From assembly GCA_029945625.1 (NCBI GenBank), contig JAQSCW010000002.1, positions 62,001-126,000 of the forward strand: a stretch of 64,000 bases of DNA. The letters are read 5' to 3'. Below the pieces are notes generated by a model. That model was given only the letters and a program-made list of their open reading frames with translations. It had not been told where the DNA came from and made no database searches. Origin of the DNA: a bacterium. GTDB taxonomy: Bacteria; Bacteroidota; Bacteroidia; B-17B0; Aurantibacillaceae. Position numbers and translations under genes: made by a program. Below are positions 24,187 to 32,446 of this stretch, piece by piece. Within the stretch, counting starts at the first letter, position 1. Each line of letters begins with the position of its first letter.

Positions 24187-25818
24187 TTAGTCTGCTTGTA
24201 AAAAAGGGTATTTATAATCGAGAGGCGGCACAAAAGTTTCTTTAATGGTGCGGGGCGATACCCAGCGCAATAAATTGATTTTGGCTCCCGCTTTATCGTT
24301 TGTGCCACTTCCGCGTGCTCCGCCAAAAGGCTGCTGCCCAACTACCGCTCCGGTACATTTATCGTTGATGTAAAAATTTCCCGCTGAATTACTTAGTTTT
24401 TTTGTTGCCAATTCAACCGCGTAACGATCCTGCGCAAAAATAGCCCCGGTGAGTGCATAAATGGACGTGCTGTCGAGTACTTCCAACGTCTGCTCAAATT
24501 TGTGTTCGTCGTAAACAAATACGGTTAAAACCGGACCAAACAGCTCTTCGCACATAGTGACGTATTTTGGGTCTTTGGCCACAATAATAGTAGGTTCAAT
24601 GAAATAGCCTTTGCTTTTATCGTAGTTTCCACCGGCAATAATTTCCACGTCTTTATCTTTTTTTGCCGCGTCGATATAGGAAGCCAGTTTATCGAAACTT
24701 TTTTCATCGATCACGGCATTAATAAAATTGGTAAAATCTTCGGTTGGTCCCATTTTCATGGATTTGAGATCGGCCACTACATATTCTTTCACTTCTTTCC
24801 ACAAGTTAGAGGGAATATATGCGCGAGAGGCTGCTGAACATTTTTGTCCCTGGTACTCAAACGCTCCTCTCGAAAGTGCCGTTGCCAATGGTTTTGGATC
24901 AGCTGAGCTATGCGCCATGATGTAATCTTTTCCTCCGGTTTCGCCAACTATACGCGGATAGGAACGGTAGTTGTGGATATTAGTTCCAATGGTTTGCCAG
25001 ATGTTTTGAAACACTTCGGTACTTCCAGTAAAATGAATGCCGGCAAAATCTTTGTGGTTAAACACCACTTCGGCGGCATCGGGTCCGCTCGGATAAATTA
25101 AATTGATAACACCTGCGGGAACTCCTGCTTTTTGAAATACTTCCATGAGCACATTAGCGCTGTACACTTGAGCATTGCTGGGTTTCCACACCACCACATT
25201 GCCCATCATGGCGCAACTGCTTGGTAAGTTGCCGGCAATGGCTGTAAAATTAAAAGGAGTTAAGGCGTATATAAATCCTTCAAGGGGACGCCATTCCAAA
25301 CGATTCCAGATACCCGGCGAAGAAATGGGTTGTTCGGCGTAAATCTCGGTCATGTATTGCACATTGAACCTTAAAAAGTCGATGATTTCGCAGGCACTGT
25401 CGATTTCGGCCTGAAAGGCATTTTTGCTCTGGCCGAGCATGGTGGCTGCATTAATTTTGGCACGGTACGGACCCGCCAATAATTCGGCCGCTTTTAAAAA
25501 GATACCTGCCCTGTGCTCCCAAGCTAAATTAGCCCATTTTTCTTTCGCCGCTAAAGCCGCATCAATGGCTTGTTTCACATGGTTTTTATCACTTTTATGA
25601 AAATAACCGAGCGTGTGTTTGTGATCGTGCGGGGGTGCCATCCTCATTTTGTTTTCACTGCGTACTTCTTTTCCACCAATAAACATCGGCGCATCCAGTT
25701 CCTTGCTACGTAGTTCCTTCAGCATGGCTTGAAGCTCAATACGCTCGGGACTTCCGGGGGCATAATTTTTAATGGGTTCGTTGATGGCAACGGGTACTTT
25801 ATAAATTCCTTTTGGCAT
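24187..25818 (-). CDS. pruA: L-glutamate gamma-semialdehyde (1-pyrroline-5-carboxylate) dehydrogenase
   Basis: The 543-residue aldehyde dehydrogenase has the features of the P5C dehydrogenase type: RMAPPHDHKHTLGYFHKSD near the N-terminus, YALTPFNFTAIAGNLPSSCAMMGNVVVWKPS (NAD binding), FTGSTEVFQ, the glutamate motif VGETGGKDY and the catalytic Cys in GQKCSAASRAYIP (about residue 325). The C-terminal GQQPFGGARGSGTNDKAG is a P5CDH signature. It oxidises glutamate semialdehyde to glutamate with NAD+, the second step of proline breakdown. The proline dehydrogenase partner is not in the window, so the two are probably separate genes. Confidence 0.95.
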   Translation of the reverse strand: MPKGIYKVPVAINEPIKNYAPGSPERIELQAMLKELRSKELDAPMFIGGKEVRSENKMRMAPPHDHKHTLGYFHKSDKNHVKQAIDAALAAKEKWANLAWEHRAGIFLKAAELLAGPYRAKINAATMLGQSKNAFQAEIDSACEIIDFLRFNVQYMTEIYAEQPISSPGIWNRLEWRPLEGFIYALTPFNFTAIAGNLPSSCAMMGNVVVWKPSNAQVYSANVLMEVFQKAGVPAGVINLIYPSGPDAAEVVFNHKDFAGIHFTGSTEVFQNIWQTIGTNIHNYRSYPRIVGETGGKDYIMAHSSADPKPLATALSRGAFEYQGQKCSAASRAYIPSNLWKEVKEYVVADLKSMKMGPTEDFTNFINAVIDEKSFDKLASYIDAAKKDKDVEIIAGGNYDKSKGYFIEPTIIVAKDPKYVTMCEELFGPVLTVFVYDEHKFEQTLEVLDSTSIYALTGAIFAQDRYAVELATKKLSNSAGNFYINDKCTGAVVGQQPFGGARGSGTNDKAGAKINLLRWVSPRTIKETFVPPLDYKYPFLQAD

Positions 25819-26190: not shown

Positions 26191-26488
26191 ATGAAAGATT
26201 TGAAACATTACATAATAAAAATGGTTGGATAGAATCCTGAATATTTGGAGGAGTTCTTTCTCATTTTGTAAAACAAAAATTAAAGAGAACGAATATATAT
26301 TTGCAGAAGCTGAGGTGTGCCGTTCTATCTATTTTGTTCAAAGTGGACTATTACAAGTTTTTTTAATCCACAAAAAGGGCGTTGAAGTGCATGTGAGGCT
26401 AAAAAGCCGGCCACGTGGTTTTCACCTTTTCGTCTCTCGGCTATCCCATACTACCCATTTCTGTATGTTGACCGAACTAATTTCTTGA
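26191..26488 (+). pseudogene. Broken Crp/Fnr-family regulator (cNMP-binding domain)
   Basis: Two frames together give a Crp/Fnr N-terminus. Frame one starts at ATG 26191 (MKDLKHYIIKMVG, then TAG at 26230, then NPEYLEEFFLIL). A shifted frame continues with KTKIKENEYIFAEAEVCRSIYFVQSGLLQVFLIHKKGVEV, the typical start of the cyclic-nucleotide-type beta-roll in this group. No helix-turn-helix domain can be read afterwards. There is at least one stop, one frameshift and loss of the 3' half. It probably once was a one-component regulator; whether it governed the nearby dehydrogenase is unknown. Confidence 0.72.
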
Positions 26489-26622
26489 ATTTGTAAATCC
26501 TTTTAGCGGAGATTGCCCCCTACAGAGACTGTGAAACATGTAATTTATTTTTAGAGCGATGTAAGACCAACTAACAAGCATGATAGTACCCTTGTACTGT
26601 TTTAAAACTAAACTCCAAAAAC

Positions 26623-27726
26623 ATGTCTACTCCAGTTATTCCAACCAAAAAAAACCCGGAAACTACTACTTCCGGCGAATCGACAAAAACTATGAAAGGC
26701 CTCGTATACGGCGGCCCCGGAAAAATAGAATGGAAAGAAATAGCAAAACCTAAAATCGAGAAGTCAACAGATGCTCTGGTTAAAATCTTGAAAACGACTA
26801 TCTGCGGAACAGACTTGGGAATTCTACACGGTAAAACCCCTACGTGTGTGCCCGGAACTACACTCGGCCACGAAGGGGTGGGTATTGTGGAAGAAGTAGG
26901 CGCGTCCGTTAGGAATTTCAAAAAAGGGGATCATGTCATAATATCTTGTATCACTTCTGATGGTACCTGTGAATACTGCAAGAAACAAATGTATGCGCAT
27001 TGTGAAGATGGCGGATGGATTCTCGGTCATCTTATAAATGGCACACAAGCAGAATATGTGAGAATCCCCCACGCGGATAATAGTATGTACCCTATTCCCA
27101 AAGGGGCCGACGAAGAAGCCTTGGTAATGCTTAGTGATATTTTGCCAACCGGCCACGAGATTGGGGTGTTGAACGGATGCGTAAAACCAGGAGATACCAT
27201 CGCCATAGTTGGAGCCGGGCCAATTGGTATGTCGGTTTTGCTTACCTCGCAATTTTATTCACCCTCAAAAATTTATGTAATCGATTTGGACGAAAACCGT
27301 CTAAAGATGGCTAAAACATTTGGGGCAACAGATACCATAAATTCAGGAACAGAAGATGCCGTAAAAAAGATTCTGGCAGAAACAAAAGACGGAGTTGATG
27401 TTGCAATTGAAGCTGTAGGAGCTCCCGCCACCTTCGACATCTGTCAACATATTGTTAAACCGGGTGGGCATATCGCCAACATTGGCGTGCATGGAAAATC
27501 GGTAGACCTGCAAATTCAAAATCTTTGGATCCGAAACATCACCATTACCATGGGACTGGTGAATACAAACACCACACCCATGTTACTAAAAACTGTGTCG
27601 TCGGGTAAAATAGAACCAAAAAAATTAATTACCCATCATTTCAAAAAAGACGAGATTCTGCGTGCCTATGAAGTATTTGGCAATCCGTCTAAAGAAAATG
27701 CGATGAAAGTTATTATTGAATTCTAA
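26623..27726 (+). CDS. Zinc-dependent alcohol dehydrogenase (MDR family)
   Basis: The 367-residue medium-chain dehydrogenase is complete. After a Lys/Thr-rich leader (about 1-23, which may be excluded if translation starts at M24) come the catalytic zinc residues in ICGTDLGI and LGHEGVG plus D of MLSDILPTG. The structural-zinc lobe CEYCKKQMYAHC retains three Cys; a fourth seems replaced in SDGT. The NAD(P)-binding motif IVGAGPIGMS (GxGxxG) follows, with LNGCVKPGD before it. The sequence GTQAEYVRIPHAD is typical of the class-III/isopropanol-like subgroup. Substrate is not clear. It is the only intact gene between 25.8 and 28.9 kb, flanked by pseudogenes, and may itself be on the way out or newly gained. 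Confidence 0.9.
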   Translation: MSTPVIPTKKNPETTTSGESTKTMKGLVYGGPGKIEWKEIAKPKIEKSTDALVKILKTTICGTDLGILHGKTPTCVPGTTLGHEGVGIVEEVGASVRNFKKGDHVIISCITSDGTCEYCKKQMYAHCEDGGWILGHLINGTQAEYVRIPHADNSMYPIPKGADEEALVMLSDILPTGHEIGVLNGCVKPGDTIAIVGAGPIGMSVLLTSQFYSPSKIYVIDLDENRLKMAKTFGATDTINSGTEDAVKKILAETKDGVDVAIEAVGAPATFDICQHIVKPGGHIANIGVHGKSVDLQIQNLWIRNITITMGLVNTNTTPMLLKTVSSGKIEPKKLITHHFKKDEILRAYEVFGNPSKENAMKVIIEF

Positions 27727-28126
27727 TAATTTTAGTATCCCCATCGTTTAGCAAAGCGAAAGGCCATACTCTTGCAAATTTCGGGGTAAACAATTGCACT
27801 TAAAACATCAGAGGCGCTTCAAGCTATTGCCGCTGCATGGAAGTATACTCGATCCAAATTACCCGTAGGCGTTTCGATCAGATTGAAATTCTTTCAAATC
27901 ACTTCACGCCGAAATTCAGTGGATTTTCACCTTATGGGTGTTCGGTATTTTGTAAATTCGCACAAACATGGTGAGTAGGTTCCTAGTCGAATGCAGGCGA
28001 AACGATGCCGGCTCCCGTACGAAAAACGCTATAAATAATTGTTACGGGGACAAACTTCACTTTGCCCGGTTTCAACTAATGCAACTGAAAATGGCCGTAA
28101 ACTAAACCGCAGAGTAGAAATTGTAA
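27727..28126. other. 400-nt gap without a recognisable gene
   Basis: One plus-strand frame, about 27807-27975, reads TSEALQAIAAAWKYTRSK and continues without stop for about 55 codons but has no start and no family resemblance. It may be remnant coding sequence. No repeat or RNA is seen. Confidence 0.35.
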
Positions 28127-28321
28127 AACAATAGTTCTATAAGAATAGTAATCGCGATACTGTTTTATGACCACCTTCTTGAGATCAATTGGACAAAGTT
28201 CAACATTTGTGTTTCGTGTAACTTTAGCTCAGAACATACCGTCCTTAGGCTGACCAAAAACTATTACTGTCAACCCTGCGCAGCCAACATTAAAACATGG
28301 ACTTGCCTTCTAAATTATTAG
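28127..28321 (+). pseudogene. Possible small zinc-ribbon protein or remnant
   Basis: A 65-codon open frame without ATG, GTG or TTG reads in part FNICVSCNFSSEHTVLRL, then YYCQPCAANIKTW. The pattern C-x2-C-x16-C-x2-C is a zinc-ribbon spacing, with the first pair at 28208-28219 and the second at 28268-28279. It lies in the decayed region and its end overlaps the start of the cytochrome-like pseudogene. It may be a degraded small zinc protein, or one that starts at CTG 28160. I cannot name a family. Confidence 0.3.
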
Positions 28322-28786
28322 TTCTACTTCTTAAAATCGGCTTTTTGGCCTACTGGCAAGCTCAGGACAATACTGCCCATTTACAATCTCAACTTAATGA
28401 GCTTCAAAAGCAAATAGCAAACGCCTATCGACTAGGGTTTTGGTGAATTTATGAGCAAAATTCAGGTGCATCACAATAAACTGTAATCGCCGGCGATACC
28501 AACAAAGGGCAATGCCGAATTTGAAGCTCACGACATTAGGGAGTCACTGGATGCGCTTCCAAAATATTGCGCCAACAGAAAAGAAATAATCTCCCTGTCT
28601 ATGCTACAGCCGGCCATTAACAGCGTCAATACCACAATCAGACAAAATAATTCAATACTTTTTAAGAGCAGTTTCAAATTATTGATGAGTTTTTGAAACA
28701 ATTGTCATCGCGCAACTATGTTTGGTTTAAATAGTGTGAAAATTTCAGACAAGCCGCCATTCAGCAATTGGGCCTGGGCCAAATAG
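28297..28786 (+). pseudogene. Broken small cytochrome-c-like protein (CxxCH family)
   Basis: The gene starts at ATG 28297 with a signal-like segment (KLLVLLLKIGFLAYWQAQ) and LQSQLNELQKQIANAYRLGF, then hits TGA at 28444. A frameshift restores FGEFMSKIQVHHNKL, followed by TAA at 28484. It then continues with NAEFEAHDIRESLDALPKYC and PAINSVNTTIRQNNSILFKSSF to TGA at 28694, NNCHRAT and a closing PPFSN. The pattern resembles a family of about 170-residue exported Bacteroidota proteins with a C-terminal TCxxCH heme site. The TGA sits where the first heme Cys should be. Two in-frame stops plus a frameshift make it a pseudogene. Confidence 0.72.
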
Positions 28787-28880
28787 TTGAAATTATGGGG
28801 ATTAGAAAGATTAAAAAGTTTGCTGCACGCACCGCCAAACATTCATAAGAAGTTTGACTTGGATTTGTACGCAAACATGA

Positions 28881-28911
28881 TTTGGCTTTACCCCTATTGT
28901 TTGTAGCTTTG
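28881..28911 (+). promoter_or_regulatory. Full Bacteroidota promoter of the RND/MMPL transporter gene
   Basis: TTTG (28881-28884), a 19-nt spacer and TAGCTTTG (28904-28911) match the consensus exactly. The expected start of transcription, about 28916-28918, coincides with the first plausible codon (ATC 28917) of the transporter gene. Confidence 0.75.
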
Positions 28912-28916
28912 CAAAA

Positions 28917-31196
28917 ATCGTTAAACCAAGAACATATCAGCTCCTGATCCTACTTTTAGTTGTACTGGGTTCCATTTTCTGCGCCTCTCGGTTGCAGTTT
29001 TTAAAGTTCGATTACGATTTTGAGGCTTTTTTTCCGAATGAAGATCGCGAGCTCGAGCTCTATTCCAACTACCGAAAAACCTTTGAGTACGACAATGAAT
29101 TTGTTCTGCTCGCCCTCGAAAATAAAGCAGGTATCTTCCGAAAAGATTTTCTGTTACAGGTTGACAGTCTCACAAAAGAGTTGCAAAAACTTGAATTTGT
29201 TAAACACGTAAGCTCAGCCACCAATATGAAAACCACTTCATTGGGTGGTTTGGTCCCCTTTCAATCGCGTTTACTCCGAATTGAGAACGAAGAGTACTAT
29301 GCAGCCGACAGTGCCGCCATTTATGACTCTCCCTTTTTGATAGGTTCCTATTTTCCTCAAAACGCGAAATCCTTAAGTTTATTTATCAAAACAAAAGACG
29401 GACTCAGCAAAAAACAATCAGACCAATTATCAAATGAAATCCGCGCCGGCATTGCTGCCTATTCGTTTGATGAATTCCATCTGGCGGGGAGGATTTTTGC
29501 ACAGCAGGTATATCTCGAAAATATTCAAAAAGAATTTGTATGGTTTTTAGCCATTGCATTTGTGTTTGTGGTTATTTTTTTATGGTTCAGTTTCAGAAGT
29601 GTATTTGGCGTGGTGGTGCCTGTAACAGTGGTGTTGGTCTCAATCCTCTATACGTTGGGCATCATGAACCTTTTCGGGAAATCAATCGACATCATGAGCA
29701 TTATGCTGCCTACCATGATTTTTGTAGCAGGCGTGAGTGATGTGGTACATTTCTTTTCAAAATATTTTGAGGAATTGGAAAAGGGAACCGCCCGGGAAAA
29801 GATCTATCGGGTAATAGTGAAGGAAGTGGCCTTCCCTACTTTCTTAACCCTTATCACCACCGTGGTTGGCTTTCTTTCGCTCTTGTTTTCAAGCATCAGG
29901 CCGGTGCGGGAGTTTGGCATCTACACCTCTCTTGGAATTACCATTGCCTTTATTCTAACCTATACCCTACTTCCCGCCATTCTTTATTTTTATGCTCCGC
30001 ACCGCATGATCTCCAAAAACCATTCCCATACGCGCGTGAACAAGATTATGAGCGGCGGATTTTTTTGGATTTTGAAACATCAGAAACTCATTTTCGGGAT
30101 CAGCATGGTACTGTTGGTTCTATCTCTCGTTGGCATTACTAAAATAAAAGTCAATAATATTTTGTTGGAAGATCTCAGCGACAAAGTGCGGGTGAAACAA
30201 GACTTCAAATTTTTTGATGAGAATTACAGTGGTGCTCGCCCCTTCGAATTGCTGGTCACGTTGAAAGATTCCCAGCACTCTGTATGGGATTATAACACCA
30301 TGCGCGACCTTTACATGGTAAACGAATTCGTTAAATATGAATATAGCGCGGGATTTATTCTTTCAGCGCCATCCATTGTTGCGGAAATCTATCGCACTAC
30401 AAATTTTCAGGTTGGAGGACGTTTCCCACCTAAAGCTGAATATGAGGCCATCAGCACACTGCTCATCAGCAATAAGAACAGCAAAGAGATCAAACGCGTG
30501 GTTCGTGTGGATGGATTAAGTACGAGGATCAGTGCGAAGGTAAAAGACATGGGCAGCGCCAAAATAAATGAACACAACAAACAGCTGATGCAGTTCATCG
30601 CCCATCATACCGATACCAATTTGCTCTCCTTTAAAATAACAGGAGCCGCTCAACTCATGGATCGTAATAATGAATATATGGTGAGCAATATGGCGAATGG
30701 GTTTCTGTTTTCCATATTTGTGATTGGACTATTAACCTTTTTTCTTCATCGGAGTTGGCGCATGATGGTAGTCTTTTTGCTTCCTAATTTAATTCCTTTA
30801 TTAGTGGTTGCCGGAGTGATGGGCTTTGCGGGAATTGAATTAAAGGCCGCAACCTCTCTCATCTTTAGCATTGCATTTGGCATCGCTACCGACGATACCA
30901 TCCATTTTATTTCACGCTTAAAACTGGAATTGGGTTATGGCAAAAGTCTTTTGTACGCTTTTAAACGCACCTACTTCGAAACGGGAAAACCCATCATCTT
31001 AACTACTTTTATATTGGTAGGTGGCTTTGTAAGCCTTATGACCAGTAATTTTGAAAGTACTTTTTATTTTGGATTCCTCATTTGCATCACCATTGTGGTG
31101 GCTGTACTGGCCGATATATTTTTATTACCGGTACTGCTCTTTTTGGTATACCGAAAAAAAGAATACAACAGAATGAAGAAGTTATTCGGCCATTAG
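28917..31196 (+). CDS. RND/MMPL-superfamily exporter
   Basis: About 759 residues with the duplicated RND layout. An N-terminal helix (TYQLLILLLVVLGSIFCAS) is followed by a periplasmic domain beginning FDYDFEAFFP, then five helices (about 195-360, including IDIMSIMLPTMIFVAGVSDVVHFFSKYFEE). A second helix, a second periplasmic domain and five more helices follow (FSIAFGIATDDTIHFISRL, with the Asp pair of the proton relay). It likely exports a lipid or hydrophobic compound by proton antiport. The first ordinary start, TTG 28992, removes helix 1. The upstream frame opens after TGA 28880 and contains no ATG, GTG or TTG, so ATC 28917 is proposed. The next gene begins 12 nt after its stop. Confidence 0.85.
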   Translation: MVKPRTYQLLILLLVVLGSIFCASRLQFLKFDYDFEAFFPNEDRELELYSNYRKTFEYDNEFVLLALENKAGIFRKDFLLQVDSLTKELQKLEFVKHVSSATNMKTTSLGGLVPFQSRLLRIENEEYYAADSAAIYDSPFLIGSYFPQNAKSLSLFIKTKDGLSKKQSDQLSNEIRAGIAAYSFDEFHLAGRIFAQQVYLENIQKEFVWFLAIAFVFVVIFLWFSFRSVFGVVVPVTVVLVSILYTLGIMNLFGKSIDIMSIMLPTMIFVAGVSDVVHFFSKYFEELEKGTAREKIYRVIVKEVAFPTFLTLITTVVGFLSLLFSSIRPVREFGIYTSLGITIAFILTYTLLPAILYFYAPHRMISKNHSHTRVNKIMSGGFFWILKHQKLIFGISMVLLVLSLVGITKIKVNNILLEDLSDKVRVKQDFKFFDENYSGARPFELLVTLKDSQHSVWDYNTMRDLYMVNEFVKYEYSAGFILSAPSIVAEIYRTTNFQVGGRFPPKAEYEAISTLLISNKNSKEIKRVVRVDGLSTRISAKVKDMGSAKINEHNKQLMQFIAHHTDTNLLSFKITGAAQLMDRNNEYMVSNMANGFLFSIFVIGLLTFFLHRSWRMMVVFLLPNLIPLLVVAGVMGFAGIELKAATSLIFSIAFGIATDDTIHFISRLKLELGYGKSLLYAFKRTYFETGKPIILTTFILVGGFVSLMTSNFESTFYFGFLICITIVVAVLADIFLLPVLLFLVYRKKEYNRMKKLFGH

Positions 31197-31207
31197 AATA
31201 AAATCAC

Positions 31208-32446
31208 ATGCAAGAATCTAGGACTCATAAAAAACACATCGTGATTATTGGTGCAGGGGCTGCCGGATTTTTTGCAGCCATCAATGCCGCTATAAATGAT
31301 CCCCTGCTTTCAATTGAGATCCTCGAAAAATCAACAAAATTACTTTCTAAAGTAAAGGTCTCGGGTGGTGGCCGCTGCAATGTGACCCATCAGTGTTTTG
31401 ACAATTCAGATCTCGTGAAAAACTATCCCCGTGGCAGCAAAGAACTGAAGCAGGTATTTTCGCATTTTGGAGTGCAAGACACCATTAAGTGGTTTAAAGA
31501 GCAAGGTATTGTGCTCCGCACCGAAGAAGACGGGCGAATGTTCCCCTACTCCAACGACAGTCAAACCATTGTCGATTGTTTTATTAGTCTGGCTAACAGA
31601 TACACTATTCGCATTCGCACAAGCTGTGAGGTTTTTGCCATCACCAAAAAAAAGGAAGGTTTTGAACTGAAAACAAATCAGGGTCTCATTGCCGCAACAA
31701 GCGTGGTATGCGCCCAGGGAGGACATTCTAAATCAGGCGCCTATGATCTTATTAAGAATTTGGGGCATACCATCGTGGCTCCCATTCCCAGTTTGTTTAC
31801 CATTAATCTTCCAAACGAACACATTAAAAAAGAACTGCAAGGGTTAAGCGTAAAACGCGCTGAAGTAAAGATTGAGGGAACCAAACTGAGTTATACGGGG
31901 CCGGTACTCATCACCCATTGGGGTTTGAGCGGACCTGCCGTATTGAAACTCTCGGCTTTTGCCGCTCAAGAGTTTTATGAACGCGAGTATAAAGCAACGA
32001 TCATTACCAATTGGGTATTCCCCTTAAACCAACTTGAAGTAGAAAAGATGCTCAAGCAGATTCAAAAAGAAAAACACAAAGCCCTTCCCTATTCCCATCC
32101 CCTCTTTGAATTGCCCCGTCGTTTGTGGGAATTCTTTTGTGCGCAGGCGGGGATCTTAAATACTAAACCCTGGGCCGAGATCAGCAATAAAGAGATGATG
32201 AAATTGAGTGAGGTAGTATGTCGCAGCAACTATAAAATGGAAGGAAAAACCACTTTCAAAGAGGAGTTTGTTACCTGCGGAGGCGTGAGTTTGAAAGAAG
32301 TTGATTTTAAGACCATGCAAAGTAAAATGGTGCCGGGTTTGTTTTTTTGCGGCGAAGTCCTCAATATCGACGGTATTACCGGTGGTTTTAATTTTCAAAA
32401 TGCATGGAGCACAGCCTGGATTTGCGCATCTGCAATATCTGCTTAA
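31208..32446 (+). CDS. NAD(P)/FAD-dependent oxidoreductase (BaiN/HI0933 family)
   Basis: The 412-residue flavoprotein has an N-terminal Rossmann fold (IVIIGAGAAGFFAA, GxGxxG at 15-20), the family block KVKVSGGGRCNVTH (about 47-60), GRMFPYSNDSQTIVD (about 115), the middle HI0933-like insertion domain and the closing GLFFCGEVLNIDGITGGFNFQNAWSTAW that caps FAD. These proteins are called BaiN or RdsA-like; their substrate in most bacteria is not known. It begins 12 nt after the transporter gene and is probably in the same transcript. Confidence 0.9.
   Translation: MQESRTHKKHIVIIGAGAAGFFAAINAAINDPLLSIEILEKSTKLLSKVKVSGGGRCNVTHQCFDNSDLVKNYPRGSKELKQVFSHFGVQDTIKWFKEQGIVLRTEEDGRMFPYSNDSQTIVDCFISLANRYTIRIRTSCEVFAITKKKEGFELKTNQGLIAATSVVCAQGGHSKSGAYDLIKNLGHTIVAPIPSLFTINLPNEHIKKELQGLSVKRAEVKIEGTKLSYTGPVLITHWGLSGPAVLKLSAFAAQEFYEREYKATIITNWVFPLNQLEVEKMLKQIQKEKHKALPYSHPLFELPRRLWEFFCAQAGILNTKPWAEISNKEMMKLSEVVCRSNYKMEGKTTFKEEFVTCGGVSLKEVDFKTMQSKMVPGLFFCGEVLNIDGITGGFNFQNAWSTAWICASAISA

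Follow-up and report, generated by a model that had tools for sequence, protein, structure and literature searches.

Translation initiation factor IF3 is encoded by infC, a gene that autoregulates through an AUU or AUC start codon and represents the classical IF3-sensitive arrangement. Leaderless mRNAs, such as those of lambda cI and the mycobacterial RUG transcripts, begin with AUG, or with GUG in actinobacteria. The Bacteroidota generally make no use of Shine-Dalgarno (SD) sequences. To our knowledge, very few conserved starts other than AUG, GUG or UUG have been described outside infC. One of them is Streptomyces sigR, where an IF3-repressed GTC start is found in 32 of 34 species (GTT in the other 2) and is normally misannotated (PMC5472188). 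The textbook view that leaderless translation depends on AUG comes from Escherichia coli, where other codons fail on leaderless messages even with a matching initiator tRNA; IF3 also antagonizes such messages (PMC9031893, PMC4611024). No report of a leaderless AUU, AUC or AUA start was found in the open-licence literature.

Here we analyse an RND/MMPL-family transporter gene located in the window, the whole stretch of 64,000 nucleotides of Bacteroidota DNA under study; coordinates are positions in the window on its forward strand. The gene resembles infC in having a conserved start that ends in a base other than G (AUU/AUC in infC), but infC has a leader and an SD sequence, whereas the transporter appears to have neither. 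The infC gene of the same genome (about 145,000 on the contig) also starts at ATC, with GGAGG 5 nt before it, which resembles an SD sequence although the phylum makes scant use of such sequences elsewhere. Like sigR, the transporter is a gene other than infC with a noncanonical start conserved across a clade; sigR, however, has a strong, conserved ribosome-binding site (AGGAGGTG) and experimental proof, while the transporter belongs to another phylum, has no such site, uses AUH (AUU, AUC or AUA) and is known from sequence only. Like leaderless mRNAs it has A-rich first codons, and its start would lie no more than about 2 nt from the predicted 5′ end. The codon at that end differs, being ATC in the window and ATH (ATT, ATC or ATA) in 35 orthologues rather than the AUG or GUG of the known cases. 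On balance, we consider it likely that the transporter starts at ATC 28917 on an apparently leaderless message from a sigma-A promoter, by weak, IF3-sensitive initiation.

Every element of the layout described in the earlier note is present at its position. Downstream of an in-frame TGA stop (28878..28880, plus strand) lie a −33 element, TTTG (28881..28884), and, 19 nt further on, a −7 element, TAGCTTTG (28904..28911), which matches the Bacteroidota sigma-A consensus TAnnTTTG at 6/6 positions. The 5-nt gap CAAAA separates the latter from the ATC codon at 28917..28919, from which the frame is open to 31196, defining a plus-strand gene of 759 codons (28917..31196, stop included). The absence of any in-frame ATG, GTG or TTG between the stop at 28880 and TTG 28992..28994 was likewise borne out. 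This TTG is the first canonical in-frame start codon and the choice of a mechanical ORF caller, and it is not conserved as a start in the relatives.

The choice between these two codons affects the architecture of the protein. The product matches the Pfam MMPL profile PF03176 (7.8e-37, 127.4 bits against a cut-off of 20.5), and a profile search with NCBIfam TIGR00921 (HAE3) scored 222.9 bits, below the curated cut-off of 351.9. An AlphaFold2 model built from 38 homologues (mean pLDDT 82.6, pTM 0.77) contains the MMPL domain and the two membrane-helix repeats with periplasmic domains that define the MMPL/HAE3-like members of the RND superfamily. Its nearest folds in the PDB are MmpL5, MmpL4, MmpL3 and HpnN, which have in common with it the fold and a twofold repeat bearing an MMPL/SSD domain, although identity is just 13–16% and the protein stays under the HAE3 cut-off. 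In the model, the first transmembrane helix (TM1) spans residues 4–26 (28926..28994), with a local pLDDT of 81–93. As TTG 28992 corresponds to residue 26, a start there removes TM1, in agreement with the earlier claim that the frame from ATC encodes a first helix that a TTG start would lose. An ORF caller restricted to ATG, GTG and TTG cuts the gene at this point, a likely annotation error.

Related genomes and genome contigs were searched and yielded 60 distinct close orthologues: 35 with ATH, 24 that start with ATG, and one (L057) in which ATC sits one codon later than the aligned start column. Opposite ATC 28917 in the alignment, 16 of the 35 ATH orthologues have ATT, 15 have ATC and 4 have ATA, and in no case does an in-frame ATG occur between the upstream stop and codon 26; all 29 same-genus loci displayed (L007–L035) carry ATH at the start position. 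The earlier note had suggested an alignment to see whether ATG stands at this codon in orthologues, and in the close relatives it does not. ATC accounts for 15/35 start codons against 14% of the Ile codons in the gene bodies (375/2682), which could reflect clade structure or preference. Wherever the contig is complete, the orthologous frames are intact, at about 750 codons. The assemblies are drafts and many are metagenome-assembled, a circumstance that would favour a mistake in sequencing or assembly, or decay into a pseudogene with loss of the ATG; nevertheless, three different codons and intact frames in 35 distinct species refute this explanation, and we assign it practically no weight. 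Since 35 distinct genomes share ATH and carry open frames, two of the options offered in the earlier note, truncation and sequence error, are excluded. Its remaining option, a rare start codon on a leaderless message, is sustained by ATH in 35/35 orthologues and by a near-leaderless geometry in which the leader itself is predicted.

It might be argued that the start differs from species to species, lying at a GTG or TTG upstream or at a TTG or GTG downstream (such as 28992), and that ATH is an ordinary isoleucine codon. A canonical codon does occur upstream in frame in 19 of the 35, and the free exchange of ATT, ATC and ATA is the pattern of an internal isoleucine codon. These upstream candidates, however, share no common column and often fall within the −7 box, and the downstream ones lie within or beyond TM1. 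Moreover, nine of the 35 have no ATG, GTG or TTG at all between the upstream stop and codon 26, and in five species an in-frame stop precedes ATH by two to four codons; in L026 and L055 the distance is two, so that a single codon stands between stop and ATH. A shifting start is therefore highly improbable. ATH is the sole start column common to all species examined, and its conservation as a non-G-ending codon across species, with no canonical alternative in the nine, gives it the sequence features of an IF3-discriminated start.

In a midpoint-rooted tree computed after removal of the first 12 residues, a branch (SH-aLRT 95) separates the ATH genes (36 rows, L057 included) from the ATG genes, such that a single change explains the ATH/ATG label. 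Because of the midpoint root, the direction of this change can only be presumed. Judged from these sequences, the ATH state extends throughout this clade of uncultured Bacteroidota and is evolutionarily stable, and ATG is confined to the other side of the supported branch. Among the ATH genes, at least 11 substitutions fell on the third base, and none of them produced G. With G at 18% of fourfold sites and about 12 independent draws, simple arithmetic gives roughly p = 0.09 for its absence, which is not significant alone, so that the statement that AUG is avoided is weaker than the statement that AUG is not preferred.

This value, compared with a free third base, leaves some room for the idea that AUH is neutral slack, in which dosage hardly matters, any AUN works and the codon has no regulatory role. 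Such an account is compatible with the AUH start itself. It is opposed by the finding that starts are normally selected for AUG: across 36 genome groups, a switch from AUG to AUU was seen in 1 of 61,358 AUG starts (PMC5622118), and an AUH start throughout a clade is therefore far from normal drift. The promoter geometry and the A-rich first codons are also maintained. We regard neutral slack as a minority possibility that deserves to be kept in mind, and favour a start at AUH that is weak and IF3-sensitive.

Where would the message begin? We scored the −7 box as TAnnTTTG with at least 5/6 matches 4–8 nt before ATH, and found it in 30 of the 35 ATH orthologues, whereas 200 composition shuffles averaged 2.7 and never exceeded 7. 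Only 4 of the 24 ATG relatives have the same box, and L075 is the one clear case. The consensus promoter claimed in the earlier note thus stands for the conserved −7 box; the −33 TTTG, clear in the genome itself, is mostly just a T-rich stretch in the relatives, which makes that half of the match weaker. In Flavobacterium psychrophilum, the TAnnTTTG box occupies −12 to −5 (PMC9723704). By this rule, transcription would start at the fifth base past the box, which is 28916 in the window (predicted start 28916..28917, plus strand, within about 2 nt) and falls 0–2 nt ahead of ATH in most species. In 31 of the 35 a C or T precedes ATH, as at a transcription start. From these features we infer a message that is leaderless or nearly so, with a leader of 0–2 nt. 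No SD sequence is present between the −7 box and ATH in the window or the relatives.

A different arrangement would be an AUH start on a leadered mRNA, transcribed from a promoter further upstream, with the TAnnTTTG box being incidental or a second promoter. Most Bacteroidota mRNAs are indeed leadered: the figure for leaders above 10 nt is 87% in F. johnsoniae (PMC6847099), and that for leaders below 10 nt is 3.7% in B. theta (PMC7366714). Weaker 5/6 boxes also occur elsewhere in the AT-rich intergenic regions, and one of them, TAAGTTTT, is found repeatedly in the closest group, some 31 nt upstream. On the other hand, the box near ATH keeps its distance in 30/35 amid diverging flanks. In 14 relatives the divergent neighbour is just 77–112 nt away, and all of these have a box at the same place, 5–6 nt before ATH. 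We therefore judge a leadered message unlikely, and it would in any case still carry a conserved AUH start.

The beginning of the coding sequence is itself distinctive. Across the clade, synonymous change in this gene is most strongly constrained at codons 2–8 (28920..28940, plus strand), the seven codons after ATH accounting for ranks 1–6 of about 687 windows. We considered whether this reflects a special 5′ element and rejected the idea: in the same species the divergent neighbour gene, which starts with ATG, has a comparable and even stronger peak at that codon, so that the peak marks a gene start. The first codons are A-rich, with 60% A in the relatives against 45–46% in the ATG relatives and the neighbour gene.

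We then compared the gene with a sample of its own genome (464 kb, 11%), in which 251 ATG genes were examined for the −7 box and gene context. Eleven of the 251 (about 4%) have a 6/6 box 4–7 nt before the ATG, against 0 for a reversed-motif control; exact boxes are few at 8–11 nt, and the rest lie at 12 nt or more. Given this difference from the control, a small leaderless class seems to exist in the genome, and by its geometry the RND gene seems to fit it. Among the eleven are genes with UroD-like and MurB-like first residues; leaderless-type ATG examples are L184:4424+, L187:19888- and L181:13478+. A strict search that demanded TTTG at −33 gave no enrichment of leaderless ATG genes (8 vs 8), while the analysis of the −7 box alone did reveal them. 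Two further genes may be noted. A hemC-hemD fusion (L198:15570-17153, minus strand) has an apparent GTG start 4 nt past TATCTTTG and is a leaderless GTG candidate, and a paralogous RND gene (G000:C54, L147; 31% identity) reads TAGATTTG-TTTT-ATG, with near-leaderless spacing but ATG.

A search of the genome for strict promoter-ATH combinations gave 51 sites, against 18 for a reversed-pattern control, and a convincing ORF followed only in the case of the RND gene. An ATT lookalike on L198 was discarded, being inside a lycopene cyclase whose coding sequence extends further upstream. Apart from the RND gene, none of the other ATH starts in the 464 kb (11%) qualified. With an altered initiator tRNA in mind, ARAGORN was run on the best 30 tRNA loci and found two CAU-anticodon tRNAs and no odd initiator among them; queries of the genome with two approximate initiator tRNA patterns gave no match.

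As for the genomic neighbourhood, an HI0933-like flavoprotein gene (31208..32446, plus strand) lies 11 nt 3′ of the RND gene and is probably on the same transcript; a homologue is nearby downstream in 17 ATH relatives. In most ATH relatives, a gene resembling 1-pyrroline-5-carboxylate (P5C) dehydrogenase is divergent from the RND gene, and this is the neighbour whose distance was examined in the 14 relatives above. Its counterpart in the window, named by resemblance, is at 24187..25818 on the minus strand. Compared with the relatives, the window carries an extra segment of about 3 kb between the two genes (26225-28880), comprising a short, likely truncated Crp-like ORF named by eye (26225-26488), a zinc alcohol dehydrogenase (26623-27726) and about 1.1 kb without clear genes.

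These comparisons suggest the following mechanism. The sigma-A promoter TTTG-N19-TAGCTTTG would set the 5′ end of the RNA at ATC or within about two bases of it, and the message would begin with AUC, or with AUU, AUC or AUA in the relatives. The initiator tRNA would pair with this codon with a third-base mismatch, by analogy with the AUU/AUC start of infC. Since IF3 selects against start codons with a final base other than G and also disfavours leaderless messages, little of the transporter would be made, and more of it when IF3 runs short or 70S ribosomes abound. By the same analogy, the start may be deliberately weak, holding the pump at a low, IF3-responsive dose. Given that leaderless messages in E. 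coli require AUG and are antagonized by IF3, a leaderless AUH start should be doubly weak, and yet it is maintained. The ancestor of the clade probably swapped AUG for the AUH arrangement, if the presumed direction of change is correct, and the clade kept the swap, perhaps for a low or conditional dosage of the pump.

More broadly, the clade may naturally initiate on the 5′-terminal AUU, AUC or AUA of a leaderless mRNA and may have kept AUG out, with the IF3 level or the availability of 70S ribosomes setting the dose of the transporter; this is a tentative proposal, which we doubt slightly more than we believe. If it is true, the AUG requirement for leaderless initiation would not hold in this clade. 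The natural set of leaderless AUU, AUC and AUA starts, with the AUG sister group as a control, would then make the recognition of the 5′-terminal codon testable in the Bacteroidota.
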